DNA from: an uncultured Opitutales bacterium
GTDB taxonomy: Bacteria; Verrucomicrobiota; Verrucomicrobiia; Opitutales; Seribacteraceae
NCBI GenBank assembly: GCA_905478775.1
Contig: CAJQKB010000044.1
Coordinates: forward strand, 1-64,000
DNA length: 64,000 nucleotides
Reading direction: 5' to 3'
The position numbers and the translations under genes were made by a program. This document shows, piece by piece, positions 29,652-45,643 of this stretch. Under the pieces are notes generated by a model. That model was given only the letters and a program-made list of their open reading frames with translations, was not told the DNA's origin and made no database searches. Each line of letters starts with the position of its first letter. Positions within the stretch are counted from its first letter, which is position 1.

Positions 29652-30392
29652 ATGAGAAATCTTTTTCCTAGATGGGTAAATACAATACCAGTAAAAGTTA
29701 TTTTATCTTTGGGTATTATTGGAGGCACAGTAACCGCAGGCATTACTTACTATGCAACACCAAAATATACAAGAGTTGGGTATCAACCTACTCAACCGGT
29801 TTCTTACGACCACAGTTTTCATGCTGGTCAATTGGGTCTCGATTGTCGTTATTGCCATCACGGCGTTGATAAATCGTCACATGCCAACATCCCATCTGCT
29901 AATGTCTGTATGTCCTGCCATAAGAACATAAAAGCGGATTCCCCTTTACTCGCTCCAATTCGTGATTCTTATTTCGGAGAGGATGAAAATAAGGACGGCA
30001 AACTGTCCGAAGGGGAAGACCTAAATGATGATGGAATTTTAAACGAGGGACCCTCTGTACCATGGGTTCGAATACACAAGGCTCCAGATTATGTTTATTT
30101 CAATCATGCGATACATGTGAACCGCGGAGTGAGTTGCGTGGAATGTCATGGCAGAATTGACCAGATGGAAGTTGTCCATCACGACAAACCTCTCAGCATG
30201 GCATTTTGTTTAGAATGCCATCGAAACCCTGAGAAATCACTTCGCCCGATGAATGAAGTCACTAATCTAGCTTGGTCTATTGCATCGAAAGAGGAAGAAG
30301 ATTCTCACATTACGCAATTTCACGCTGGACTGGATATCAAAAATAAATGGGGTGTTAATCCTCCCCTAAGCTGTACTGGATGCCACCGATGA
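29652..30392 (+). CDS. actA: Alternative complex III subunit ActA, pentaheme cytochrome c
   Basis: A 246-residue membrane-anchored cytochrome. One N-terminal span lies at about 14-35, followed by five CxxCH heme-binding motifs: CRYCH, CMSCH, CVECH, CLECH and, at the very end, CTGCH. This is the pentaheme pattern of ActA, which passes electrons out of the complex in the periplasm. Between the second and third motifs sits an insertion (residues 109-133) with an EF-hand-like loop, Asp111-Asn113-Asp115-Glu122, and a second partial loop, which I do not expect in ActA. It is the first gene of the operon and overlaps actB (ATGA). Confidence 0.95.
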   Translation: MRNLFPRWVNTIPVKVILSLGIIGGTVTAGITYYATPKYTRVGYQPTQPVSYDHSFHAGQLGLDCRYCHHGVDKSSHANIPSANVCMSCHKNIKADSPLLAPIRDSYFGEDENKDGKLSEGEDLNDDGILNEGPSVPWVRIHKAPDYVYFNHAIHVNRGVSCVECHGRIDQMEVVHHDKPLSMAFCLECHRNPEKSLRPMNEVTNLAWSIASKEEEDSHITQFHAGLDIKNKWGVNPPLSCTGCHR

Positions 30393-33300
30393 TTAAACAA
30401 GTGACCGAAGAAACCTTAGAGAACGGAAAGCGTTACTGGAAAAGTCTCGATGATCTAGCTTGCAAGCCAAGTTTTAAAAATTGGGTAGAAAGAGAATTCC
30501 CGGAAGGAGCTAGCATGCTCGAAGGCGTCCAAAGACGAGGATTCATGAAATTAATGGCCGCTTCGTTCGGTCTTGCAGGATTGGGTATGACAGGTTGTAG
30601 AAGACCAGAACATACTATATTGCCTTATGGTAAAAGTCCTGAGGAACTTATCCCCGGCGTACCCAATTACTACGCAACCTCAATGCCTAGTGCACAAGGT
30701 CACACACCATTAATTGTTGAAAGTCACGAAGGTCGTCCAACTAAAATCGAAGGAAACCCTAGTTACATCCCCAACGGTGGTGGTACTTCTATTTATGCAC
30801 AAGCTAGCGTCTTAGATCTCTACGATCCCGACAGAAGCAAGTCTTCTCTTAAACGATCTAATGAAAATGAAGACTCTTGGGATGTCATTTCTTCGGATCA
30901 AGTCAAAGAAGATTTGGTTAACCTGATGAAAGAAGGTAAGGTCGCGATCCTTGCTGAAAAATCAAGTTCAACTGCAAGAAAAGCTCTTTCTGAGTTGTTA
31001 ATTGAAAAGGGTGTTATTTGGACGGAACATGAAGCAATTGATCTCACTTCCCCCGAATACAAATTAGGTAATGCAATTGGAACAGATAGCGGTCTGCGAT
31101 TGATTCCCAATTTGGGTAAGGCATCTCGTGTGTTATCATTGGATTGTGATTTCCTAGGAAACCGAGAACCATTTTCACTTGCGAATACCCGTGCGTTAAT
31201 GAAAGGGAGGAAAGTTCTCTCTGCCAAGGACGCCAAAAAGATGAATCGTCTTTACAGCGTGGAGTCTGACCTGACGATTACGGGTGGAGTGGCAGATCAC
31301 AGGTTACGCCTCGAATCTTCTCAGTTTATTGCATTTACTAACTTGCTTGCCGCAGAAATTTTCACAATCAGAAAAAGTGGATCTAAAGCCGAGATCACAC
31401 GGCTTCAAGAAAGAGGTAATGTATTAAAAACCCATGCAAAATGGATCAGGGAGTGTGCGGTTGATCTATGTTCCAAGCACAAATCAAGTGTTATTTTACC
31501 CGGCGGTCATTTACCCGCAGAAGTTCATTTACTTTGTTATGCTATCAACCAAGCACTAGGTTGTATCGGGCGAACGGTGCAATATCAGGTTACTGATAAA
31601 CCAGCCTCAAACTTGTTGTCGCTACAGCAAGCAATTGGTAAAGATAATGTAAAAACACTTATATTTTTAGGTGGCAACCCTGTTCACAATGCAAGCTCAT
31701 TGGACTGGGGAAATTTATCAGATAAGATTTCAAATAAAATCCACCTCGGTGATTCGGTTAATGAAACTACTTCTATTTGCGATTATCACATTGGTCAGTC
31801 CCATTATTTAGAATCTTGGGATGAAGGAGAGACATGGGATGGAACCGGAATTGTTCCTGTTCAACCCTTGCTTGCTCCCCTTTTTGAAACGATGGCAGAT
31901 TTGGAGTTACTCCAATTGTTGTTAGGTTCTTCTCAAAATACCCATGACTTTGTAAAATCTCTCCAAGAAAAACGCTCTTCTACTGATTCTTATGAAGATT
32001 TCTTAAGACTAGGTGTTGAAAAACAAATTCCAACTTACTATTCGAAGGAAATTCCGCTTTCAGAATTAAGTAAATATAAAGAACAGATACCAAAACCCCC
32101 CACTTTAGATAATCTAGAAGTCTTACTGATCCCAGATTTTCATGCATGGGACGGTCGTTACGCAAACAATGGTTGGATGCAGGAATGTCCTGACCCTATT
32201 TCCAAATTGACTTGGGATAATGCACTTTTAATAAGCCCAGCATTAGCCAAGACCCTTGAGGAAAAATATCCGTCCTTAGGTCTTATTCCCGAACCGACGA
32301 TGCTAAACAAGAATGGTGAAATTGCACCGGATGCGGCTAACTTCGATCATGGTAAACAAAAAGCACCTATTGTTACACTCTCAATAAGTGAAAATCAAAC
32401 CATTGAAGGCCCTCTTTATGTTCAACCTGGTTTAGCTGATTGTAGTATTATTGCAACTCTTGGACTTGGTAGGACAGAAGTTGGTCGAGTAGGCAATGGG
32501 ACTGGATATAATGCCTATCCTCTACTCGGTAATAATTTCGACCGAATCGTATCCAATGTTTCCATTGAACCTACAGGTGAATTTGAAACACTCGCAAATG
32601 TGCAAGAACATTGGTCCATGGAAGGAAGAGCAATTGTACGAGAGGGGAACGCAGAGGAGTATATTTCAGACGAAGCATTTGCCTCTCACATGGGAGCTGA
32701 ATCCCATTCACCAAAAATTTGGGGAAAAGACCAAGAGGCTGATCTTAAATTTAAAGCTCAAACTACTCCTCGGGGAAATTCTTCTTATGAACACCCGGAT
32801 CATAATTACGAGAAATCTGAAACCCCCGGTTTACACCAGTGGGGTATGGCAATCGATTTAAATCAATGCACAGGTTGTAGTGCCTGCGTCGTTGCATGCC
32901 AGAGTGAAAATAACATTCCAATTGTAGGAAAAGACCAAGTTTTGAGAGGTCGAGAAATGCATTGGATCAGGTTGGATCGATATTTTAGTTCAACAGCACG
33001 AGATGGGGCAGAATTACCGTCCGATGTTCAAGTTTCATTCCAAGGTGTTGCCTGCATGCATTGTGAAACCGCACCATGCGAAACAGTATGCCCCGTAAAT
33101 GCAACTGTGCATGATGAAGAAGGTCTTAATGCAATGGCTTACAACCGATGCGTCGGTACCCGCTATTGTGCGAATAATTGTCCTTACAAGGTGAGAAGGT
33201 TTAACTTCTTCGATTGGAATAAACGCCAAACCGATGAACTGTATAAAGGACCTTTGGGTAAGAAAAATGACCCACTTCCAGATATGGGCAAAAATCCAGA

Positions 33301-33772
33301 TGTCACCGTCCGTATGCGCGGAGTCATGGAAAAGTGTACCTATTGTGTGCAAAGAATTCAGGAATCCAAAATCCAAGTTAAAGTAAAAGCACAAAGAAAT
33401 GCTTTGCTGAGCACGGGTAAAGATGGGGCAGATATTGAACTGAGCAATGAAGATATTAAAGTTCCTGATGGAACCATCAAAACTGCCTGTCAACAGGTTT
33501 GCCCGTCTGACAGTATATCATTTGGTGATTTATCAGATCCTGAAAGTGAAGTTAGTAAACTCAAGAATAACCCTCGCGATTATTCTGTGCTTGGATACCT
33601 AAACACTCGTCCAAGAACTACTTTCTTAGCGAAAGTCCGTAACCCGAACCACAGCATGCCAGATTTTGCATCTTCTCCACATGCCGCTCGGGAATACCAT
33701 GACAAAGCACATCCAACCCACCACGAAGAGGGTGATCATGATAACCATGCCAAAGAAGGAGAAAAGCATTAA
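30389..33772 (+). CDS. actB: Alternative complex III subunit ActB, molybdopterin-like/Fe-S protein
   Basis: A subunit of about 1127 residues combining a molybdopterin-oxidoreductase-like half, which in the family carries no cofactor, with a ferredoxin-like half. The N-terminus has [15 protein letters not shown] and a twin-arginine-type [15 protein letters not shown] (residues 48-62), then [12 protein letters not shown]. The Fe-S half carries [41 protein letters not shown] and CTYC with CQQVC, enough for four clusters. It works with ActC/F to move electrons from quinol toward ActA/E. I choose the ATG at 30389, which overlaps the actA stop, over the ATG three codons earlier at 30380. Confidence 0.95.
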
Positions 33773-35193
33773 TGTCTTCTAAGGTAACAGATCAGGCGGA
33801 TGTAATTTCACCCGAATTGATGAAAAAAGTGAACCCTGCAAAGTGGGAAGAGGTTCCACTTGTGCTCAATAAAAGAAATTTTCATTGGGTAACAGAGAAA
33901 ATTTGTGGAATTGTCGAACAGAAGACACCTACCTGGTGGTGGTGGTGTTTTATTACTGCAATGGGCATTGCAAGTTTCACCGGATTGGGACTCGTTTATT
34001 TAGTCTCAACAGGCGTAGGTGTTTGGGGAAATAGCAATCCTGTTAATTGGGGTTGGGCAATTGTGAATTTTGTATTTTGGATTGGTATTGGACATGCCGG
34101 CACCCTGATTTCTGCTATATTATGCCTTCTTAAGCAAAAATGGAGAACATCCATTAATCGTGCATCAGAGGCAATGACTGTATTTGCAGTAATGTGTGCC
34201 GGTATTTTCCCACTGTTTCATGTGGGGCGTGTTTGGTTTGCGTGGTGGTTATTCCCTCTTCCCAACGCGAATGCTATTTGGCCACAGTTTCGAAGTCCCT
34301 TAGAATGGGATGTTTTCGCAGTATCCACTTACTTTACAGTTTCCATATTGTTTTGGTACATGGGCATGATACCGGACTTAGCGGTTCTGAGAGATCGTGC
34401 TAAAGAAACTTGGCGGAAGTATTTTTACGGTGTACTTGCTATGGGTTGGCGAAATGCGAACAACCATTGGCGCAATTTTGAAATGGCCTATCTACTTTTG
34501 GCTGGACTTTCAACCCCTTTAGTACTTTCCGTCCATACAATCGTTTCTTTTGATTTCGCCGTTGCAAATCTTCCCGGGTGGCATACTACGATTTTCCCAC
34601 CTTATTTTGTGGCAGGGGCTATATTTTCTGGATTTGGAATGGTTCTTACTCTATTACTGCCATTACGAGCAATTTTCCGACTTCATGACCTCATTACCGA
34701 GAAGCATATTGATAATATGTGTAAGATCATATTGGCGACTGGAAGCATGGTGGGCTATGCCTACTCGATGGAATTCTTTATTGCTTGGTATGGTGCTAAT
34801 TCATACGAAGGGTTTGCATTTATCAATCGTGCATTCGGGAATTACTGGTGGGCTTATTGGATAATGGTATCCTGTAATGTAATCTGTCCGCAATTATTTT
34901 GGTTCAAATCAATCAAGAATAATATTCCGCTTGTCTGGATCATATCTATTTTTGTTAATGTGGGAATGTGGTTTGAGCGTTTTGTAATCGCAAATACTAC
35001 TCTTTCTCGGGATTTTCTCCCATCTAGTTGGGGGTATTATTCTCCAACTGTTGTCGACATCTTTACCTTCTTTGGTACATTCGGTTTCTTTTCTATTCTG
35101 TTTTTGCTATTTTTGAGATTTTTACCACTAATGCCAATGGCAGAAGTTAAATCAGTTATGCCCGCAGCAGACCCTCATGGAGGGAAACATTAG
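33772..35193 (+). CDS. actC: Alternative complex III subunit ActC, NrfD-like membrane protein
   Basis: A 473-residue integral membrane protein of the NrfD/PsrC family with about ten spans. It binds and oxidises quinol on the periplasmic side in ACIII. Typical stretches are [18 protein letters not shown] at the first span, [16 protein letters not shown] with the conserved His, [14 protein letters not shown], and [11 protein letters not shown]. The start overlaps the actB stop by one base (TAATG). The C-terminal tail is His-containing and cytoplasmic by inference. Confidence 0.95.
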
Positions 35194-35201
35194 AATCTAA
35201 A

Positions 35202-35753
35202 ATGAGTAAGCTAATGGACATTAAATACGGCGTTGCTGCTACTTTTAATTCTGCAAAAGACATATACGATGCTGCCGGCAAAGTACGTGAAGAAGGCTTC
35301 AAGAATTGGGAATGCTATACCCCCATTCCGGTTCATGGTTTAGATGCACAAATGGGTGTGGGGCGTTCAAAAGTTCCCTGCTTTACTCTTGCAGGTGGAA
35401 TTACAGGTTTTTTTACCGGGACTTTACTTGTGTGGTTCATGAATTACTACGATTATCCTCTGATTGTTGGTGGTAAACCATACTTCAGTATGATCTATCC
35501 ATTCCCTGTGTTTTATGAACTCACTATTTTGTTTGCTGCATTTGGTACACTTTTTGGAATGTTTTTCTTAAATCGATTACCACAACACAATCATCCTATT
35601 TTTGAACATCCATCTTTCGGAAGAACTGGAGATGATAAATATATGATTGTTATCGAAATTGAAGACCCTAAATTTGATGATGAAGAAACTCCTGAATTTT
35701 TGAAGACTGTGGGTGGTAAATCGATCACTATGATTCGTGAATCAATTGAGTAA
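35202..35753 (+). CDS. actD: Alternative complex III subunit ActD
   Basis: A 183-residue membrane protein of the DUF3341 family. The N-terminal soluble part has YGVAATFNSAKDIYDAA and WECYTPIPVHGLDAQMGVG, the usual ActD beginning. Two spans follow (about 60-82 and 97-122, with PVFYELTILFAAFGT), and a C-terminal cytoplasmic part resembling a ferredoxin-like fold. In known ACIII structures it packs against ActC and ActF and holds no cofactor. It begins 8 bases after actC. Confidence 0.93.
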   Translation: MSKLMDIKYGVAATFNSAKDIYDAAGKVREEGFKNWECYTPIPVHGLDAQMGVGRSKVPCFTLAGGITGFFTGTLLVWFMNYYDYPLIVGGKPYFSMIYPFPVFYELTILFAAFGTLFGMFFLNRLPQHNHPIFEHPSFGRTGDDKYMIVIEIEDPKFDDEETPEFLKTVGGKSITMIRESIE

Positions 35754-35756
35754 AAA

Positions 35757-36419
35757 ATGAGATATTTTATACCAGTATTTATCATCATTGCTGCAAGCAT
35801 CGTGTCCATTATGGGATTCCGGGGCGACTTGACAGAAAATACTCCAATCGAAGTATTTCCTGACATGGACAGGCAAGCTAAATACAAGTCACAAACCAAA
35901 AATCCTTTTTTTGGGGACAATCGGGCGGATCGTTTACCTGTTATTGGTACTGCCATTCGTGGTAACTTAATTACTCAAAACAATGTTTTTTCTGCTACAC
36001 CTAAGTTTCTCAGTGATTCGATCAAAACTGGTAAGGACTCAAATGGGAAATGGCTCAGTAAAATACCGAATGAATTAGGTATTAATATCGATTTGATGCG
36101 TTTGGGAAGAGAGAAATATGATATTCACTGTTCTGTTTGCCACGGCGATTATGGAGATGGAAAAGGAGTCACCTCTTATTTTGGGTTAGCACCGCGTAAC
36201 CTGTCAGATTCATCTCAATCCGGATCTTACTTAGAATCAGCAGCACCATGGTCGGACGGACAAATCTACAATGCAATTGCAATGGGTTCTGCTTCCGGGA
36301 TAATGCTTGGACTGAAAGACAAACTCACTCCTCGTGAGCGATGGGCAATTGTACTATACTTACGAGCACTACAAAGCTATGTGAGCGATGCTACCAATGG
36401 AATTGATAAGAAATCATGA
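35757..36419 (+). CDS. actE: Alternative complex III subunit ActE, monoheme cytochrome c
   Basis: A 220-residue protein with an N-terminal signal or anchor (residues 1-20) and a single heme motif CSVCHGDYGDGKG at about residue 125. The Met region follows in MGSASGIMLGLKDKLTPRERWAIVLYLRAL, a typical class I cytochrome c ending. In ACIII, ActE is the cytochrome from which electrons leave toward the oxidase. It starts 3 bases after actD and overlaps actF by ATGA. Confidence 0.93.
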   Translation: MRYFIPVFIIIAASIVSIMGFRGDLTENTPIEVFPDMDRQAKYKSQTKNPFFGDNRADRLPVIGTAIRGNLITQNNVFSATPKFLSDSIKTGKDSNGKWLSKIPNELGINIDLMRLGREKYDIHCSVCHGDYGDGKGVTSYFGLAPRNLSDSSQSGSYLESAAPWSDGQIYNAIAMGSASGIMLGLKDKLTPRERWAIVLYLRALQSYVSDATNGIDKKS

Positions 36420-37693
36420 GTGAGGTTGCCAAAAAAGATACTGATTTAAAATTACTTGCCGGTGCTGTTCTTGGATTAGCAATTGGTTTAGTTGGATTAT
36501 TCTTGGGACTTTCAAGCGGTGATAAAGCACCCTTCCTTGGATGGTTATGGGGTTGCTCGTTTTGGCTAAGCATTGCAATTGGGATGTTAATGTTAGTCAT
36601 GATTTTCAGAGTTTTTAATTCGAGATGGACACCAGTGGTAAGGAGACAATTGGAGCATGGACTTGCGGCTTTTCCGTGGTTAGGTCTTTGCTTTGCTCCT
36701 CTATTACTTGTGGCTTTATTTGGGGGAGATAACGCTGGCATTTTATGGTCTTGGATCAACCCAGATAGTCCAACAGTTGATGGTATAACTGTTGCAACAG
36801 ATGTTCTCCATCAAAAGAAAGCGGGCTATTTGAACCTTTATTTTTTTAGTTTGCGGATCATTTTATACTTCGCAGTTTTTTGCGGTCTTAGCCATTGGAT
36901 GAGAAAAGTTTCATTTACACAAGACCAGGATGGTGACCCAAAATGGTCACATCTCGGTATGAAAGTCTCAGCGATAGGTATTCCCGCTACGGCATTGGCT
37001 CTCACCTTTGGTGCTTTTGACATGTTCATGAGTTTAGAATATCAATGGTTCTCCACAATGTATGGAGTTTGGTTTTTTTCATCGGGAATGAGAGCTGCAC
37101 TCGCAATCACCATCTTGGGATGCCTTTTCCTTCTCAAAAAGGGTACCCTTACCGGTATTTACAAACAGGCCCATCAATATGATCTAGCCTGTCTTTCCTT
37201 AGCATTTACCGTTTTTTGGGCATATATTAGCTTTTCTCAATATTTCTTGATCTACAGTGCGAACATTCCAGAAGAAACATTTTGGTATAATATTAGAGAA
37301 ATTAACCCCAATACAGGAGAAACTTCAGCTTGGTTTTGGGTAAGCATGGGATTAATTTTTGGACACTTTTTCTTTCCTTTTCTCTACTTACTTTTCTACA
37401 AGAATAAAATCAACGGGGGTCGAATTGCTTTTATTGCACTTTGGATATTAGCTTTTCATCTGCTTGACCTGTACTGGAACATTATTCCGGGGCGTGAGAT
37501 TGTTCCTGGTGCATATGTCGGATACGAAGCCCGTCCTGTACTTGGATTCCATTTATTTTGGGGGATTTCCACCCTAATAGGGGTTGGATGTTTATGTGTG
37601 CGTGCCGTACGACAAAGCTTCAATTCAAACGTTGCTGAGTTAATTCCCGTGAGAGACCCAAGAATTTTAGACTCTTTAAACCATCATGAGTGA
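36416..37693 (+). CDS. actF: Alternative complex III subunit ActF, NrfD-like membrane protein
   Basis: A 425-residue integral membrane protein related to ActC, with about ten spans. It contains the stretch GAFDMFMSLEYQWFSTMYGV with a conserved Asp-Met-Ser-Leu-Glu, and FSQYFLIYSANIPEETFWY, both characteristic of ActF. In ACIII it is thought to contribute to proton translocation rather than to bind quinol. It overlaps actE by 4 bases, and its last codons overlap the small membrane-protein gene by 8 bases. Confidence 0.93.
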   Translation: MSEVAKKDTDLKLLAGAVLGLAIGLVGLFLGLSSGDKAPFLGWLWGCSFWLSIAIGMLMLVMIFRVFNSRWTPVVRRQLEHGLAAFPWLGLCFAPLLLVALFGGDNAGILWSWINPDSPTVDGITVATDVLHQKKAGYLNLYFFSLRIILYFAVFCGLSHWMRKVSFTQDQDGDPKWSHLGMKVSAIGIPATALALTFGAFDMFMSLEYQWFSTMYGVWFFSSGMRAALAITILGCLFLLKKGTLTGIYKQAHQYDLACLSLAFTVFWAYISFSQYFLIYSANIPEETFWYNIREINPNTGETSAWFWVSMGLIFGHFFFPFLYLLFYKNKINGGRIAFIALWILAFHLLDLYWNIIPGREIVPGAYVGYEARPVLGFHLFWGISTLIGVGCLCVRAVRQSFNSNVAELIPVRDPRILDSLNHHE

Positions 37694-37985
37694 TCCTAAA
37701 TTACAGCGTGCAGATGGATGTAGTGTGTTTTTCTCACTTATCATTGGTATCATTTTGGTATCAGCTTATTTTTTATTTCAAGTGTATTTTGATGAGGAAA
37801 ATAATGTTGAATCCCAAAGTATGATTTCGGACCAAAGAAGTAAAAAAATCATGGAGTTCAAAAATGATTCTAATATTTTTGAATCAAAAATTATTAATTT
37901 CCATAACGAAAAAAATTCTAGCCTCGAATCAGTAATGAAAAAAATTACTGAATCTTACCGTCCCAAACCAAATAAAGACCAATAA
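37686..37985 (+). CDS. Small single-span membrane protein between ActF and the CcoN-like gene
   Basis: A 99-residue protein with one membrane span (about 14-34, FFSLIIGIILVSAYFLFQV) and a charged tail with RSKKIMEFKNDSN and SSLESVMKKI. The tail pattern (Arg-rich start, then a hydrophobic IPI/SVM-like helix near the end) faintly recalls a small protein found between ACIII and oxidase genes in other bacteria, but the match is weak. It overlaps actF by 8 bases and ends 7 bases before the CcoN-like gene, so it belongs to the operon. Assembly or linker roles are possible. Confidence 0.75.
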   Translation: MSDPKLQRADGCSVFFSLIIGIILVSAYFLFQVYFDEENNVESQSMISDQRSKKIMEFKNDSNIFESKIINFHNEKNSSLESVMKKITESYRPKPNKDQ

Positions 37986-37992
37986 TCCAAAA

Positions 37993-39405
37993 GTGAAACT
38001 TACTGACGAACAAGTGATAGACAAGTCCGCAAAATGGGTGGTTTCTTTCTTTATTGCCTCTGCCGGTTTGTGGTTACTTGCCGCCGCACTCCTCGCTTAC
38101 ATTGCCGCTGCTAAATTAACAGATCCTTTTTTTCTTTCATCTTTCGAATACTTCACTTACGGAAAAGTGAAAATAGCTCAAGCAAATGCCTTTGTTTATG
38201 GTTGGGGTGGAAATTCAATTTTTGCAATAAGCATATGGATTATTGCTAGATTATCCCAAGCTGAGGTTAGAGGACGAGTATTGCTTATTACATCAGGAGT
38301 ATTATGGAATCTCGGAATAACATTTGGCCTCCTTGGTATTTTGGATGGACACATGAATTCTCATGAAATGCTTGAAATGCCTAATGAGGTTTGGCCACTA
38401 CTTTTTATCTCATACGCAATCATTACTTGCTTGATTATTGTGGTCCACCGCTCTCGTAAATACCCAGACACGATTGCACCCCAGTGGTTCATACTTGCTG
38501 CCATCTTGTGGTTCCCTGCACTTTTCTTAATCGCTTGGAATGGTCTTGAAATTAATCCTTCACCAGGAACGGTTCAGAGTGTTCTTTCAATGTGGTTTGG
38601 ACAAAATTTAATTTGGCTTTGGCTCACGCCTTTTGCTCTCGGTGTAGCTTATTACATAATTCCTTCGATTATTGGTAAGCCAATCGATAAGTATTATTTA
38701 GCAATTTTTGGGTTTTGGTGTATAGCAACTCTTGCCCCTTGGTCTGTCGTGCATCATTTAGAGGGTGGTCCTGTACCAATGTGGATACCTGCTATTGGGA
38801 CAGTTATGAGCATTGCAATGATTTTCCCCATAGCAGTTGCCTCAACAAATTTTCATGCCACTGCATTTAAAGATATAGATAAAGTATGGAGTAGTTTACC
38901 CCTTAGATTTGTTATTTTCGGTACTCTCTCATATACAATATCAAGCTACATTGGGGTTATCTTTTCGCTTCCTTCAGTAGCCAAATTGACTCAATTTTCT
39001 ATCATTAATGAGTTTCATTTCAATCAACGCGTTTATGGATTTTTCAGTATGATTGTTTTTGGTGCGGTGTACCACATGCTTCCCAAAATTACAGGAAAAG
39101 AAATTACCAAATCTGCAAAATCATTCCATTTTTGGACTTCAGCCTTGGGTGTCATGATGCTGTTACTGGCTTATCTAATTGGTGGTTTAACTCATGGTGT
39201 TTTGGCCCAACAACCTGCTCTTGACTGGACAAACTCTGTTATTGCTTCAATTCAACCCTATTTTCTAATCACCGAAATTTCATTTATCATACTAGGCTTT
39301 TCACAATTGGTGTTTGTAATCAATATTTGGAAGGTTCTTGTTCCTAACCCTTTTGAAAATACGGGAAGAAGTAAAAAGTTTGTATCTAAGGCTTCTACAG
39401 TATGA
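37993..39405 (+). CDS. CcoN-like (cbb3-type subunit I) membrane protein lacking canonical ligands
   Basis: A 470-residue protein with about 12 spans that aligns with CcoN along its length: GWGGNSIFAISIWI, LGVAYYIIPS, APWSVVHHLEGGPVPMW, FGAVYHMLPK. Key residues differ. The first low-spin heme His (PLHTNA in CcoN) is Gln63. The CuB His of WYGHN is Gln204. The cross-linked Tyr is Ala248. The second low-spin heme His of HVHSG is Asn344. The CuB pair His254-His255 and the high-spin heme His342 remain. Oxygen reduction by the known mechanism therefore looks impossible unless other ligands substitute. Start GTG, 7 bases after the small membrane gene; stop overlaps the next ATG. Whether it carries any heme is unknown. 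Family assignment is firm, function is not. Confidence 0.88.
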   Translation: MKLTDEQVIDKSAKWVVSFFIASAGLWLLAAALLAYIAAAKLTDPFFLSSFEYFTYGKVKIAQANAFVYGWGGNSIFAISIWIIARLSQAEVRGRVLLITSGVLWNLGITFGLLGILDGHMNSHEMLEMPNEVWPLLFISYAIITCLIIVVHRSRKYPDTIAPQWFILAAILWFPALFLIAWNGLEINPSPGTVQSVLSMWFGQNLIWLWLTPFALGVAYYIIPSIIGKPIDKYYLAIFGFWCIATLAPWSVVHHLEGGPVPMWIPAIGTVMSIAMIFPIAVASTNFHATAFKDIDKVWSSLPLRFVIFGTLSYTISSYIGVIFSLPSVAKLTQFSIINEFHFNQRVYGFFSMIVFGAVYHMLPKITGKEITKSAKSFHFWTSALGVMMLLLAYLIGGLTHGVLAQQPALDWTNSVIASIQPYFLITEISFIILGFSQLVFVINIWKVLVPNPFENTGRSKKFVSKASTV

Positions 39406-40514
39406 ATAATATTTTTAAATTTTCATTTGGAATTTTCACCACACTCGCAGTTGCTTGGCTTGCCTTTGTAGTAGGTGCTCGCAAGCAATTTGGAGATTTG
39501 TCTCCGACTTCTTCTGTTTTAAACGAGGATGGAAATATACCAGAGGATTCTGATTTATATCCTGTTGCGTTTTCTGGTGTTGCTCAACAAGGTGCCGTCG
39601 AATATCTATCTCTTGGTTGTGCCACATGCCATACTCAACAAGTCCGATTAGTTGAAGCTGGTTTTGATGTGGAAAGAGGATGGGGAAAAAGACCTTCGGT
39701 CGCGAGAGATTATATTTTGCAGAATGAAGTAAACATAGGAAATACTAGAGTAGGTCCTGATTTAGCGAACCTAGGAATGAGAGAATATTCGGATGAATGG
39801 TTGCACCAACACCTTTTCGAACCACAATCTTTAAACGAAAAATCAATTTGTCCGCCGAGCCCATTTCTCTATGACATTAAGGACTCTAATGTATCTGGCT
39901 CTATACAAATTATCTCAGAAGATAACAGAACAAGACTCGTAAAACCACGAATTAAAGCAAATCGTATTGTAGCTTACCTTCAAGAACTTCGTCAAGATTA
40001 TGAATTGCCTGAGATGAGTTTCGTGGAGGAGGAGGAATCGGATGCATCGGAACTTGTTGTAGTCCCAACGACCTCAACTCAATTACCGACCTGGTTAGCG
40101 GACCAAATTTCATCCGGAAAAGAAATTTACACAAAAGTCGGTCCAGGCGGGGGAGGGTGTGTATCCTGCCATCAACCCACTGGTTTAGGTCTACCAGGTG
40201 CATTCCCTCCACTTGCAGATTCTGACTGGGTGCTCGGTGATAAGGAAAGAATAATTAAAATTAGCATGCATGGTTTAATGGGAGAAATTGAAGTTAATGG
40301 TGATAAATACAATGGTGTTATGATAGCCCCGGGAGTACCACCAGGTTCTTTAACAGACCAGCAAATTGCTGATGTACTGACATACATTAGAAATGATTGG
40401 GGTAATTCTGCATCTGCTGTAAGCCCAGAGGAAGTAGCTAATGTAAGGGACTTCGTCAAAGATCGGGGACAAATGCAAATGTGGACTGCTGCAGAACTAA
40501 ATTCCGATAAATGA
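39402..40514 (+). CDS. CcoO-like monoheme domain fused to a second cytochrome c domain
   Basis: A 370-residue protein with one N-terminal anchor (about 5-25). The first half resembles CcoO of cbb3 oxidases: GCATCHTQQVR (heme Cys73, Cys76, His77), VGPDLANLGMREYSDEWLHQHL and a PFL end. Where CcoO has the distal Met (ESNMPAYP), this protein has Cys150 in EKSICPPSP. A Glu/Thr-rich linker (about 215-235) leads to a second class I cytochrome c domain with CVSCH (Cys253, Cys256, His257), GLPGAFPPLADSDWV and a normal Met region VMIAPG. The fusion joins CcoO- and CcoP-like functions in one chain. It overlaps both neighbours by ATGA. Confidence 0.9.
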   Translation: MNNIFKFSFGIFTTLAVAWLAFVVGARKQFGDLSPTSSVLNEDGNIPEDSDLYPVAFSGVAQQGAVEYLSLGCATCHTQQVRLVEAGFDVERGWGKRPSVARDYILQNEVNIGNTRVGPDLANLGMREYSDEWLHQHLFEPQSLNEKSICPPSPFLYDIKDSNVSGSIQIISEDNRTRLVKPRIKANRIVAYLQELRQDYELPEMSFVEEEESDASELVVVPTTSTQLPTWLADQISSGKEIYTKVGPGGGGCVSCHQPTGLGLPGAFPPLADSDWVLGDKERIIKISMHGLMGEIEVNGDKYNGVMIAPGVPPGSLTDQQIADVLTYIRNDWGNSASAVSPEEVANVRDFVKDRGQMQMWTAAELNSDK

Positions 40515-41185
40515 GTAATAAGACAAAAAAAAGCTTAGAAGATAGTAATGTAATGAATGATGATGATATGGTTGAAGTTCATTCGGAACTTAATCGTGAA
40601 AAACATCCCCCCACTCAGGGTTTCCTTATCGCACCCCTTATTTTCGTATTTATGTTTGGGTGCTTGATCTTTGTTTGTTCGATACAATTAGCACATTCAA
40701 CAAATGGTTTTCAAATTCACCCTCCACAAGAAATTGTAGAATTATCGGATGAAGAAAAGGAAACTCAGAGATTAGAAAGAAAATATGACTCCGGTAAAAA
40801 GATTTTTGCTCTTCGATGTGCTTCTTGTCACCAAGCAAATGGTCTTGGTATTCCAAATCAATATCCTCCATTAGCAGATTCAGAATGGGTTTCTGCAAAT
40901 CCGGCTTTAATCACTAAGATCATTTTAAAGGGATTAAAAGGAGAAATTACTGTTAAAGGTGAAAAATACGGTACATCTTCTGCAGTCAATATGGCAGCGG
41001 TTCCTATTGACGACAGAGAAATTGCTAATGTGGTAACTTATGTTAGGCAGGCTTGGGGAAATGACTTTGGGGAAATGACAACGGATGAAGTCGCTACGAT
41101 CAGATCAGACACCGTTGATCAAAAAGATCAATGGATTGGCGAAGCTCTTCAGTCCATTTATCTGACAAGTTCCTCCAAAAATTAG
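40511..41185 (+). CDS. Membrane-anchored monoheme cytochrome c
   Basis: A 224-residue protein with an acidic N-terminus, one span at about 37-60 (FLIAPLIFVFMFGCLIFVCS) and a periplasmic class I cytochrome domain: CASCH, GIPNQYPPLADSEWV, and NMAAVP as the likely Met region. The domain is very similar to the C-terminal domain of the preceding gene (both read PPLADS(D/E)WV, then GEI-V-G-KY and DWGN/AWGN), so the two probably arose by duplication. It is the last gene of the ACIII operon. Confidence 0.92.
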   Translation: MSNKTKKSLEDSNVMNDDDMVEVHSELNREKHPPTQGFLIAPLIFVFMFGCLIFVCSIQLAHSTNGFQIHPPQEIVELSDEEKETQRLERKYDSGKKIFALRCASCHQANGLGIPNQYPPLADSEWVSANPALITKIILKGLKGEITVKGEKYGTSSAVNMAAVPIDDREIANVVTYVRQAWGNDFGEMTTDEVATIRSDTVDQKDQWIGEALQSIYLTSSSKN

Positions 41186-41253: not shown

Positions 41254-42588
41254 TTGAGTTCTTTTACTAGTATAACACGTTTTATTCTCTTCCTTGTGTT
41301 GATTTCCTATTCCTTGGCAGTCTATGGAGATAGAAAAAAATTATTTCACTCGGAGGAAGATATCGAAACCTACTTTCCTGTTTTAAAAGTAATTTTTCAG
41401 AGTTTGGATGACAATGCACCCTTGATTAGTGAATCTAAACAACTGGGCAAGGTAGCGAATTCAAATAAAATGGTTGCTGAATCAGCAAAAGGTTTATCAG
41501 TTAACTTGAATGTAAGTGGATATTCAATCCATGAAAATCGACCGGGACAAGCTTATGATCAAAGCTATCGAACAGTTGGTTCAATTTATGTTAAAAAACC
41601 AGTTTATCATTGGGGAGGATTGAAGGCAAAGAGTCGAATCGCAGAACTGTCAGCCGAATATGGTGTTAAGAAAACTAACGCGATAAAATCTAATTTAATT
41701 TCGCAGATAAAATCAGAGTTTATGGAACTTGTGCTTTTGAATTTTCAATTAAAACTTGCTAAAGATGCACTCTCCCTAAGCGAACAGAATGAAGAAGACT
41801 TAATCAAAAGAAAAGAATTAGGCTTCGCTACCGAATTAATGGTCAGTCAAGCAACAATAGAAAAGCTAGAACAATCTATTAAAATTGCCGAATTTAATCG
41901 TCTTTTAATATCCAAAAAAGCGTACTTCAAACATGATACAGGCTACTACAATGAAATAGTAATTGATATCCCGGAGAAATTTGAAAGCTTCTACAATAAA
42001 CATGAGTTTGGGAAAAGAATTCCACAACTGGTTGGTTCTATTTCATCTGAAAATCTTGAAGAACTTAAAAGTCAAATAAGCATAGAAAAAGAAAATGTTA
42101 AAATAGCAGATTCGAATCTCAAACCAAAAGTTAACTTAGTCGGTGGATTCTATCAGGATCAGATTGATCTGCCAAACAAAGCAGATTCCGTAAGACGAAA
42201 TAACTTACTTATAGGTGTTGAGGCTAACTGGGCACTTTGGGATTCTTCCTACACTAAGGGAATGAAATCACTGGCATTAGCAAAAAAACGCCAGTTTGAA
42301 ATCCAACTTGAAAGTAATACTAAAAGACTTCGGTTGGAAATGAATAGTCTGCAAGCACAAATGTTTAACCTGGCAAAACAAATTGATATTGCCAGGCAAC
42401 TTGTTTCAACTGCAAACAACCGGTTTGAAAAAAGCCAACTTGAATTTGATATTAATCAAATAACATATGTCAGCTATTTTTCCTCAAAACTTGATCTTTC
42501 CAAAGCTAGGTTAAGTCTAATACAAACAGTCTTTTCCTATTTTCAGGTAAAAGAAAAATACGAATTCCATCTACAATATCCGAAATGA
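41254..42588 (+). CDS. TolC-like outer-membrane efflux protein
   Basis: A 444-residue protein with a signal peptide (residues 9-26, ILFLVLISYSLAVYGD) and long helical stretches typical of outer-membrane efflux proteins. The two helical halves lie around 120-225 and 270-430, with an NLLIGVEANWALWDSSY strand in between. It is expected to form the trimeric exit channel for the exporter encoded by the next three genes. The start is TTG at 41254; no ATG with a better signal peptide is nearby. The gene begins 68 bases after the last cytochrome gene and overlaps the next by ATGA. Confidence 0.85.
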   Translation: MSSFTSITRFILFLVLISYSLAVYGDRKKLFHSEEDIETYFPVLKVIFQSLDDNAPLISESKQLGKVANSNKMVAESAKGLSVNLNVSGYSIHENRPGQAYDQSYRTVGSIYVKKPVYHWGGLKAKSRIAELSAEYGVKKTNAIKSNLISQIKSEFMELVLLNFQLKLAKDALSLSEQNEEDLIKRKELGFATELMVSQATIEKLEQSIKIAEFNRLLISKKAYFKHDTGYYNEIVIDIPEKFESFYNKHEFGKRIPQLVGSISSENLEELKSQISIEKENVKIADSNLKPKVNLVGGFYQDQIDLPNKADSVRRNNLLIGVEANWALWDSSYTKGMKSLALAKKRQFEIQLESNTKRLRLEMNSLQAQMFNLAKQIDIARQLVSTANNRFEKSQLEFDINQITYVSYFSSKLDLSKARLSLIQTVFSYFQVKEKYEFHLQYPK

Positions 42589-43712
42589 TTAAAATAAAAT
42601 CGATAGTCATTATAGGTTTATTGTTAGGAATCGCAGGTTTTAGTTTTTTTATCGTGTCTAAGGGGGAGAGATTGCTCTGTGCTAAAGTAATTAAAGGAAC
42701 GATGAAAGATTCAGTTACTGGAAATATTCAAATTCTGGCAGAGCAGACTTTTCAATTAAAATCTCATGCCCAAGGTGTAGTGCAATTCGTTGCCATAAAG
42801 CCCCTAAGCAAAGCGATTCCGGTTGTTAAAGGACAGATTCTTGTTCAATTGGACATAAGTGATTTAAATCGTAGCCTTAAAAAAGCTTTAATGGAAAAAA
42901 ATCATTTCGAGCAGAGAATTAATGAAGGTTCCATATTCGCAAATACCTTAGAAATTGAGAAAGAGGAACTGAATGCATCAACCGCACTTTTTAATGCAGA
43001 AAAAATAACCTTAGCTGAACTAAAAAGGAAAAAGAATATTGTAACTCGTTTAGAAATTGAAGTTGAACAAGAAAAAATTTCAGATAGCGAGAAACTAATT
43101 AATCATTCAATTAGAATCGAAGATTTAAAAGCTCAAATTAAAAAGATGACCATTAGAAGTCCTATCGATGGTCAATTGATAAATTCTAATGTGTCAGGAG
43201 GGGAGTTAATTTCTTTTGGCTATAATTTGGGAACCATAATCTCAAATGAACGGCTAATCGAAGCATCGTTAGATGAGGATGATTTTGTGGGAATTAAAGA
43301 GGGTTTAACTGCTGCAGTATCTCTGTTTTCAAGGGGTAATCAAATCATAGAGGCAAAGGTTTCCAGACTTTCCCCGACAGTAAATGCTTCCACAGGAAGA
43401 AGACTTCTCTATCTTGAGCCTCTGCAATCAACTCAAATGGTTCAACCGGGTATGTCTGGAAGAGTTGAAATAATAAAAAGTAAAAAAGAAGATCGTTTAC
43501 TTCTTCCCAGTAAGTCCTTGATCGGTAATTCTGTTTTTGTGGTAAGGGAAGGAAAAGCGTTTATAAGATCGGTAAAGATTGGTGCTAGAAACTTAAAAAG
43601 TATAGAGATTTTGGAAGGACTAAAAGTCGGTGATATTGTAGTATATGAGACACCGCATATTTTAAACGACGGGCAAAAGGTAAAGCCAATTCTAACCAAT
43701 CATATCCATTAA
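42585..43712 (+). CDS. HlyD/MacA-type periplasmic adaptor protein
   Basis: A 375-residue membrane-fusion protein. It has an N-terminal anchor (residues 6-25), a beta-barrel/lipoyl half (QTFQLKSHAQGVVQFVAIKPL), a coiled-coil hairpin (about 95-185), the second lipoyl half MTIRSPIDGQLINSNVSGGELI, and a C-terminal barrel ending in GLKVGDIVVYE. It should bridge the inner-membrane ABC transporter and the outer-membrane channel. The gene is coupled to both neighbours. Confidence 0.9.
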   Translation: MIKIKSIVIIGLLLGIAGFSFFIVSKGERLLCAKVIKGTMKDSVTGNIQILAEQTFQLKSHAQGVVQFVAIKPLSKAIPVVKGQILVQLDISDLNRSLKKALMEKNHFEQRINEGSIFANTLEIEKEELNASTALFNAEKITLAELKRKKNIVTRLEIEVEQEKISDSEKLINHSIRIEDLKAQIKKMTIRSPIDGQLINSNVSGGELISFGYNLGTIISNERLIEASLDEDDFVGIKEGLTAAVSLFSRGNQIIEAKVSRLSPTVNASTGRRLLYLEPLQSTQMVQPGMSGRVEIIKSKKEDRLLLPSKSLIGNSVFVVREGKAFIRSVKIGARNLKSIEILEGLKVGDIVVYETPHILNDGQKVKPILTNHIH

Positions 43713-43718
43713 AGATTT

Positions 43719-44966
43719 GTGAGCCCATCTCTTCAATTAGCATTGCGTTATGTTTTTTCGCGCAAGCGAACGATGATGATGAGTTTACTTGGGATAGTAT
43801 TTGGAATTGCTTTTTTTATTGTTAGTCAGGCACAAACCTCCGGCTTTCAAAAGGTTTTTATTGATACAATCTTAGGTACTAGTGGGGCGATTCGCATTTC
43901 GGATAGATTTCAGGATAATGAGACGACCATCAATAAAGTATCAACTGATGGTAAAACCCATTTTATTTTCAAAAACAGGGAGAATTCTCGATTTATTGAT
44001 GGCATCGACCATCCTGCAGAAATAATCGAGTCCCTTTCGAATTTCCCTTCAGTTATTGGTATCTCTGAAATCCTCGAAACTATTGGGAGACTAAATTCTC
44101 ACTCTCGTGGTCAATCAGTTCAAGTGCATGGATTAAGAATTCAAGATCACATTAAAGTCTCAAATATTGAAAATCAATTGATTCAAGGATCGATTGAAAA
44201 TTTTGAGAAAGATCGCATGGGTATTTTGATAGGCTATCGGATCGCGCAAAGGCTTAATATTAAATTAGGTGAACGGGTCAACTTAGTTGGAACCAAGAAA
44301 AACTTTCAATTACGGGTTTCTGGAATATTTGAAACTGGTGCGAGCGAGATTGATAAAAAACGTATCTATATTGATCTTTCAACGGCAAGATCTTTAATTG
44401 GAAAGAGATTTGGAGGCTCTATACTTCAACTAGCGTTATCAAATGTAAATAATGCACCGGATGTTGCTAAACAAATTCAAGAATCAATTGGACATAGAAC
44501 TGTTAGCTGGCAAGAAAGAGAAAAGGTTTGGTTGGATGTATTTAAAGCCTTGCGAATTTCATCAGCGATAACTGTTTCCTGTATCCTCTTACTATCTGGA
44601 TTAGGCATGTTTAATGTGTTTGCGATTATGGTAATAGAGAAGACCCGAGATATTGCAATTCTCAGGTCGATTGGGTTTTCTCCCAGAGATGTATCTTCTG
44701 TATTTCTCTGGCAAGGCACCATTGTGCTGATTGCAGGAATCATATTAGGAGTTATTGCAGGCGCGATCGCAACTTACATAATTTCACAGATTCCGTTAAG
44801 TGTACGAGGAATTTTTTCCACTGACAAATTTGCGGTAAATTGGGATATTTCACATTACTTGACTGCCGTTTTTATAGCCGCGCTATGTGTGAGCGTTGCC
44901 AGTTGGATTCCTGCACGTAGGGCATCAAGAATTGAACCGGCAAAAATTATTAGGGAAAGCATATAG
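43719..44966 (+). CDS. MacB/LolC-type ABC transporter permease
   Basis: A 415-residue membrane protein with one N-terminal span (about 18-36), a periplasmic MacB_PCD domain, and three C-terminal spans (about 282-305, 330-352, 382-400). The signature AIMVIEKTRDIAILRSIGFSPRDV and the final ASWIPARRASRIEPAKIIRES are typical. The start is GTG, 6 bases after the adaptor gene. With the ATPase below it makes a tripartite exporter of the MacB class or a LolCDE-like machine; the TolC-like partner favours export. Substrate unknown. Confidence 0.9.
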   Translation: MSPSLQLALRYVFSRKRTMMMSLLGIVFGIAFFIVSQAQTSGFQKVFIDTILGTSGAIRISDRFQDNETTINKVSTDGKTHFIFKNRENSRFIDGIDHPAEIIESLSNFPSVIGISEILETIGRLNSHSRGQSVQVHGLRIQDHIKVSNIENQLIQGSIENFEKDRMGILIGYRIAQRLNIKLGERVNLVGTKKNFQLRVSGIFETGASEIDKKRIYIDLSTARSLIGKRFGGSILQLALSNVNNAPDVAKQIQESIGHRTVSWQEREKVWLDVFKALRISSAITVSCILLLSGLGMFNVFAIMVIEKTRDIAILRSIGFSPRDVSSVFLWQGTIVLIAGIILGVIAGAIATYIISQIPLSVRGIFSTDKFAVNWDISHYLTAVFIAALCVSVASWIPARRASRIEPAKIIRESI

Positions 44967-45643
44967 TGGATATTCCCTTATTACAAGTTCACGACCTGAG
45001 CCATTCATTTTTGGAAGGAGATGAAAGAGTAAATGCTCTAAGAGGTGTTTCCTTTGAAGCAATTGCAGGAGAGTTAACATCAATTGTAGGACCCTCTGGA
45101 TGTGGCAAAAGCACACTTCTTTATTTACTAGGTTTACTCGATCAACCTGACTCTGGAGAAATAATAATAGATGGTAAAGAGATTTCCAAGTCGAATGAAG
45201 AACAGCGAACGATGCTAAGGAACCAATCCATTGGTTTTGTTTTTCAATTTCATTTTTTAATAAAAGAATTAACAGCAGTTGAAAATGTGTCTCTTCCAGC
45301 TCAAAAAAAAGGGTTGTCTAAAAAAATTGCCTTAGAAAAAGCAAGTGACGTACTTTGTAAACTCGGTTTAGAAAGCAAAAGGGAGCGTTTTGCTAACAAG
45401 CTATCTGGTGGAGAACAACAACGGGTGGCAATTGCCCGGGCATTAGTTAATTCTCCCGCATTGTTACTTGCTGATGAACCCACAGGCAATTTAGATTCTG
45501 CAAATTCTGAAAATGTTTTCGAACTGTTACAAAACCTAGCAAGGGAACAGAACATCGCTGTATTAATGGTTACACATAATGAAGAGATCGCCAATCGATG
45601 TGACAAAATTATTTCGATCCGGGATGGTCTTATTATTAATTGA
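44966..45643 (+). CDS. LolD/MacB-type ABC transporter ATPase
   Basis: A 225-residue ATPase with Walker A GPSGCGKST (about 47), Q-loop FQFHFLIKELTA, signature LSGGEQQRVAIARAL, Walker B LLLADEPTGNLD and H-loop VTHNEE. The closest type is the LolD/FtsE/MacB group. It starts with GTG overlapping the permease stop (TAGTG). Its end overlaps the end of djlA by 8 bases on the opposite strand. Confidence 0.93.
   Translation: MDIPLLQVHDLSHSFLEGDERVNALRGVSFEAIAGELTSIVGPSGCGKSTLLYLLGLLDQPDSGEIIIDGKEISKSNEEQRTMLRNQSIGFVFQFHFLIKELTAVENVSLPAQKKGLSKKIALEKASDVLCKLGLESKRERFANKLSGGEQQRVAIARALVNSPALLLADEPTGNLDSANSENVFELLQNLAREQNIAVLMVTHNEEIANRCDKIISIRDGLIIN

Follow-up and report, generated by a model that had tools for sequence, protein, structure and literature searches.

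Apparent repeated loss of heme and copper ligands in a CcoN-derived protein family encoded in the ACIII operons of Verrucomicrobiia

The gene at positions 37993..39405 (+) of a 64,000-nucleotide stretch from an uncultured Opitutales bacterium (contig CAJQKB010000044.1, assembly GCA_905478775.1; the whole stretch is hereafter the window) encodes a protein with the fold of the cbb3 oxidase subunit CcoN, in which both ligands of the low-spin heme, one CuB ligand and the active-site tyrosine are replaced. It belongs to a CcoN-derived family encoded in the ACIII operon, to which we give the name CcoNx, and the pattern across this family is more interesting than the single gene. Our favoured explanation, which we consider probable, is that repeated, piecemeal loss of its ligands has left a pseudo-oxidase, which is retained on ACIII as a non-catalytic scaffold for c-type cytochromes. 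With somewhat less assurance, we suggest that CcoNx represents a class of cofactor-free heme-copper oxidase subunits that became, through repeated independent losses, a constitutive non-redox subunit of ACIII in most Verrucomicrobiia, the methanotrophs included.

RESULTS

The operon in the window

Upstream of CcoNx, ActA to ActF of ACIII are all present and intact on the same strand: the pentaheme c-type cytochrome ActA (29652..30392, +; five CxxCH motifs, Cytochrome_C7/CIII matches), the fused molybdopterin-like/Fe-S subunit ActB (30380..33772, +; MoCo_extend_TAT over cut-off and a QrcC-like Fe-S domain), the NrfD-like membrane subunit ActC (33772..35193, +; NrfD PF03916 over cut-off), which is 72–89% identical across the order, ActD (35202..35753, +; PF11821 ActD, 211 bits), the monoheme cytochrome c ActE (35757..36419, +; Cytochrom_C/Cytochrome_CBB3) and the second NrfD-like subunit ActF (36416..37693, +), which had no Pfam or NCBIfam match and was assigned from its position and its homology to ActF of related operons. 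Between ActF and CcoNx lies an ORF of 99 aa with a single hydrophobic stretch (37686..37985, +), which is confined to the window clade, found no family in profile searches and evolves far faster than the neighbouring genes (dN/dS 0.18–0.60). CcoNx is followed by a fusion of a CcoO-like heme-c domain (CATCH) with a second cytochrome c domain (CVSCH) (39402..40514, +; FixO PF02433, Cytochrom_C) and by a CcoP-like, membrane-anchored monoheme cytochrome c (CASCH) (40511..41185, +; Cytochrom_C/Cytochrome_CBB3). The first-pass annotation of this DNA had described an intact gene in a tightly overlapping operon, paired with c-type cytochromes, and this description stands: the 99-aa ORF overlaps ActF by 8 bp and is separated from CcoNx by 7 bp, and the next two genes each begin with a 4-bp overlap. 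Directly after the cytochromes comes an efflux operon (41254–45643) of TolC, HlyD-type, MacB-type and ABC-ATPase genes, which occupies the same place in other genera of the window's family (L016, L020, L032).

Fold and ligand residues of CcoNx

The CcoNx reading frame starts with GTG and runs for 470 codons with no internal stop. A phmmer search of the PDB matched residues 17–449 to CcoN of 3mk7 (E 7e-34), in agreement with the earlier claim of full-length homology, and the COX1 profile PF00115 gave 146 bits against a cut-off of 34.8, which places the protein in the heme-copper superfamily by descent. The cbb3 equivalog models fell far short of their cut-offs at this locus (TIGR00780 ccoN, 127.8 against 583 bits; TIGR00781 for CcoO, 54 against 200.65; TIGR00782 for CcoP, 34.3 against 179.95). 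In an alignment with Pseudomonas stutzeri CcoN, the low-spin heme ligands H60 and H347 correspond to Q63 and N344, the CuB ligand H207 to Q204 and the active-site tyrosine Y251 to A248, while H254/H255 (P. stutzeri H257/H258) and H342 (H345) are retained; every one of these positions had been called correctly beforehand. The complete list of histidines is 120, 124, 152, 254, 255, 288, 342, 361, 379 and 401, and the alignment offers no substitute histidine at or beside any ligand column. An AlphaFold model built from 25 relatives (mean pLDDT 93.4, pTM 0.92) ranked cbb3 CcoN structures at the top in Foldseek with TM scores of 0.88–0.90 (0.89 to 3mk7). From alignment, profile scores and model together, we conclude that the window protein has kept the CcoN fold and not the ligands.

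The histidine sextet, which binds the low-spin heme, the high-spin heme and CuB or FeB, is regarded as the signature of the heme-copper oxidases (PMC3413370). Only three of the six histidines remain here, so that by chemistry the protein falls outside the superfamily; it likewise lacks the cross-linked tyrosine of the O2 reductases (A248 in its place) and the intact sextet of the cNOR and qNOR nitric oxide reductases. The statement that all known families keep six histidines had been too strong, for NO dismutases have one of them replaced by Asn and retain their hemes (PMC3413370). They resemble CcoNx in departing from the sextet, but keep five of the six, whereas the window protein has three replaced and other CcoNx proteins can lose most or all ligands, those of the low-spin heme included.

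CcoNx across the Verrucomicrobiia

In a draw of 139 Verrucomicrobiia genomes at least 95% complete, ActC was found at high score in 103, CcoNx in 100 and both in 99, so the proposed tie to ACIII is borne out in 99 of 103 ACIII-bearing genomes. The same gene arrangement recurs in dozens of genera, with CcoNx homologues at the same place in the operon across the order. The scan of named genomes was keyed on ActC, the CcoNx alignment having no stretch conserved enough for the purpose. Five matches reading GHGHHHH, which are A-family CoxA at 42–49 bits, were left out, and a second, low-scoring CcoN type (L239, L240) was excluded from the counts.

The ligand residues could be read in 98 genomes of the draw: 25 encode a full set (six His and Tyr) and 73 have at least one loss, mostly of nearly all. 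A wider comparison comprised 138 sequences, some near-identical, of which 33 are full and 105 degenerate; among the degenerate, 41 have lost all seven ligand/Tyr residues and 49 all but one, the window clade being among the seven sequences that keep three. Read in the order of window positions 63, 204, 248, 254, 255, 342 and 344, a full member gives HHYHHHH, and degenerate relatives give such strings as SQAGDQN (the sister genus), RQGRKLQ and FGGARRF; the cultured Cephaloticoccus capnophilus and C. primus have QQARHQQ and QQSRHQQ. One locus (L158, genome G144) differs from the full set by a single change of a CuB histidine to arginine (HRYHHHH), which looks like an early step of decay. In one lineage (L026, L042, L044, L045) an extra CcoO-like cytochrome gene lies between ActF and CcoNx.

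Among the ACIII loci of the named sample that lie outside the Verrucomicrobiota, those with a visible oxidase mostly have an A-family CoxA downstream; the CcoN of an Ignavibacteria MAG (L076) is of the ordinary kind. A full-ligand CcoNx is encoded in an ACIII operon of a planctomycete, a Gemmata sp. MAG (L094, 14966–16414), which may mean that the gene was transferred horizontally or that the family is of older origin.

Pattern and number of losses

As a reference we used 123 positions with almost no variation among full members. When these are ordered by how well degenerate members retain them, the lowest 17 include six of the seven ligand/Tyr positions, and median retention is 10% at the seven positions against 66% at the other 116 (one-sided Mann–Whitney p=5e-5), a pattern indicating that the loss is directed at the cofactor site. 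Two further residues are lost as well, R60 (R57 in P. stutzeri) and S237 (S240 in P. stutzeri), the latter in what we take to be the K-channel region. Tryptophan, proline and glycine fold positions are 90–100% retained overall; W27, G70, W201, F241, P260 and P262 stand at 98–100%.

With the ligand columns left out of the alignment, a maximum-likelihood tree placed full-ligand members at the base. Loss-only counting on this tree gave between three and 11 losses per position (H63, 4; H204, 11; Y248, 3; H254, 11; H255, 10; H342, 7; H344, 9), counts that are rough, like the deep grouping of degenerate members, because of the long branches there. Evolution has been roughly twice as rapid in degenerate members (median path 1.90 vs 0.84 in full ones).

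Selection within the window clade

CcoNx is not a dead gene. Its dN/dS against near relatives is 0.041, 0.035 and 0.029, values of purifying selection as low as that of ActF (0.044, from the one pair that could be computed), and the reading frame is intact in all 24 clade genomes read; the earlier judgement that a dead copy was unlikely can thus be put more firmly. All 24 of these genomes agree at Q63, Q204, A248, H255, H342 and N344, and 23 have H254, the exception being G015 with Asn. Since 224 of the 470 columns are invariant within the clade, such identity is weak proof of a working site. The Q/Q/A/N set for which a family-wide search had been proposed proved to be fixed only in the window's own clade, and the sister genus of the same family (L016, L020) has lost all three remaining histidines (to GD/VE and Q).

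The adjacent c-type cytochromes

The CxxCH motif of the CcoO-like protein is kept in 33 of 33 full and 105 of 105 degenerate loci, and at least two CxxCH motifs lie within 2.6 kb downstream in 103 of the 105 degenerate loci. Set against the loss of ligands, these counts indicate that the c hemes have been kept and the b hemes and copper have not. All 33 full members have the distal Met of the CcoO-like heme; among the 82 degenerate members in which this position was read, 51 have Met, 21 Cys, five His, four Arg and one Ser. Cys occurs in several lineages (L016, L020, L058, L079, L089, L101, L202, L213 and others), the window's included, where it lies in the motif SICPPSPFLY; it could possibly give a His/Cys-ligated heme or be a redox-sensitive Cys. 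With the distal Met lost in the window clade and elsewhere, the CcoO-like heme may not act as a normal electron relay, and in degenerate loci one c heme may have been retuned.

Other terminal oxidases

The window genome (2.78 Mb, 95% complete) encodes one further PF00115 protein, a CoxA in which the A-family motifs are as usual and which is clustered with CtaB, CoxB (CuA and heme c), CoxC and CoxD; the separate canonical oxidase for which a search had been advised is thus, by its gene content, a caa3 oxidase. No bd oxidase was found in this 95% complete assembly. In the class draw, every genome with a degenerate CcoNx has another oxidase, which in G083 is bd alone and in the rest includes at least one other heme-copper oxidase. 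Outside the draw, the 82% complete and thus incomplete assembly G002, also degenerate, yielded no other heme-copper oxidase and no bd. Two genomes, G045 (99% complete) and G173 (98%), have CcoNx as the sole heme-copper oxidase found, with no bd oxidase found in either, and in both it has the full set of ligands; for this reason we consider it very probable that the full-ligand form works as a terminal oxidase. An A-family CoxA is encoded within 8 kb downstream on the same strand at 26 degenerate loci and at one full locus.

DISCUSSION

Our current explanation is that the ancestor was an ACIII-linked C-family oxidase encoded as actABCDEF-ccoN-ccoO-cytC, the intact form of which would survive in some Verrucomicrobiia, and that the chemistry of heme b, heme b3 and CuB was lost piecemeal and many times where another terminal oxidase was present. 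The 12-helix CcoNx subunit would have been retained as an anchor and docking site on ACIII for the CcoO-like and CcoP-like c-type cytochromes, a scaffold role suggested by what has been kept. With its near-universal linkage (99 of 103 genomes), CcoNx may be physically part of the ACIII complex. Electrons would pass from menaquinol to ACIII, to the hemes of ActE/ActA and on through the c hemes of CcoOx/CytCx, a path that we infer, to a separate oxidase, which would be the caa3 oxidase in the window genome and, in many relatives, the A-family oxidase whose gene lies directly downstream. The earlier suggestion of an electron-transfer partner of ACIII was the best part of that reading, but the electrons would run through the c-type cytochromes and not through CcoNx.

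The first-pass annotation had also considered a new catalytic site, and the window clade does keep more ligands than almost all other degenerate members. A site remodelled within this clade, with one high-spin heme on H342 and an altered copper site on H254, H255 and Q204, and with a new activity or a role as redox or gas sensor, would fit the six ligand-column residues found identical in all clade genomes; given how much of the protein is equally invariant there, this identity alone says little, and the Asn at H254 in G015, the disappearance of all three histidines from the sister genus and the absence of the active-site Tyr and the K-channel Ser make us regard such a site as unlikely. Moreover, there is no known electron path to a residual site, because both ligands of the low-spin heme are gone. 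As a conserved feature beyond the window clade, a remodelled site is ruled out by the variability of the ligand-column residues in other ACIII operons, an outcome that the first-pass annotation had itself named as counting against it. It seems improbable, too, that CcoNx now serves ACIII in ion conduction or energy coupling: a membrane protein with a settled place in this operon, conserved without redox chemistry of its own, could take on such a role, yet the known proton-path residues decay together with the ligands (of 105 degenerate members, 77 have Ala at P. stutzeri S240 and 62 have Phe or Leu at Y317), and the positions conserved across these members are W, P, G, F and N, with no new conserved polar set.

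That CcoNx is still an oxidase, using other residues as ligands, would agree with the annotation of cbb3 in related organisms (PMC8498564; PMC6688271), but with no alternative His at or next to the ligand columns, spare histidines that are not conserved family-wide and most degenerate relatives keeping none or one of the seven residues, we give this very little credence; the usual annotation is of a high-affinity oxidase, but CcoNx proteins that have lost their ligands probably cannot reduce oxygen. The loss of ligands and the doubled rate of degenerate members might also be read as signs of a decaying pseudogene or an assembly artefact, a reading with next to nothing in its favour once the intact frames of the clade, the ActF-like constraint and the recurrence of the arrangement in dozens of genera are considered; a dead gene is ruled out by the dN/dS values.

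The non-catalytic scaffold that we favour can be set against several known systems. With the cbb3 (C-family) oxidases CcoNx shares the CcoN fold, the order of N, O and cytochrome c genes, the CcoO-type heme-c domain and, in some members, all of the ligands; however, both ligands of the low-spin heme, a CuB His and the Tyr are missing from the window protein, Glu323 and His243 of P. stutzeri are absent even from full members, and CcoNx loci differ in having CcoO and CcoP scores below cut-off, no diheme CcoP and a linkage to ACIII. The ACIII-aa3 and ACIII-caa3 systems of Flavobacterium johnsoniae and Rhodothermus marinus likewise have an ActABCDEF operon followed by oxidase-type genes, but here the oxidase-type subunit is without metal sites and the working oxidase is encoded elsewhere or further downstream. 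The 'unknown group' that Muntyan et al. reportedly described in 2015 may overlap with the CcoNx family. We found no published report of the ligand loss in CcoNx in the open-licence literature.

A cbb3-type oxidase next to ACIII has been described (Refojo et al. 2010, as cited in PMC8498564), and the 'cbb3-type oxidase' beside ACIII in Methylacidiphilum and Opitutaceae, which has the same arrangement, is very probably of the same family as CcoNx. These papers regard it as a functional oxidase with high affinity, and in a genome paper the high affinity of Methylacidiphilum for O2 is linked to this cbb3 (PMC6688271); in contrast, the pmoA-bearing genomes read here do not have HHYHHHH. In one family (f28) pmoA was present in 12 of 12 genomes tested, and we therefore take it to comprise verrucomicrobial methanotrophs. 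CcoNx was read in nine of its genomes (L219, L221, L223, L225, L233–L237) and lacks six of the seven ligand/Tyr residues (SESSHFV in one genus, ADAAHQ followed by I, T or V in the other). Each f28 genome listed has a single CcoN-type match, and a genuine cbb3 in addition to CcoNx therefore seems to be lacking. What has been called a 'cbb3 oxidase' beside ACIII in these methanotrophs appears to be CcoNx, and the published attribution of high O2 affinity to it looks doubtful.

Although the histidine sextet counts as the signature of this superfamily, a whole lineage here seems to have given it up while keeping the fold. The natural series from intact to fully stripped members could reveal what an oxidase subunit does besides reducing O2, for example in the assembly of supercomplexes. 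Where a 'cbb3 oxidase next to ACIII' is annotated, as in Opitutaceae and verrucomicrobial methanotrophs, the locus may hold no high-affinity cbb3, and explanations of O2 affinity built on it (PMC6688271) would then need re-testing. If our interpretation is true, the physiology of these methanotrophs has been explained by the supposed oxidase activity of a cofactor-free subunit.
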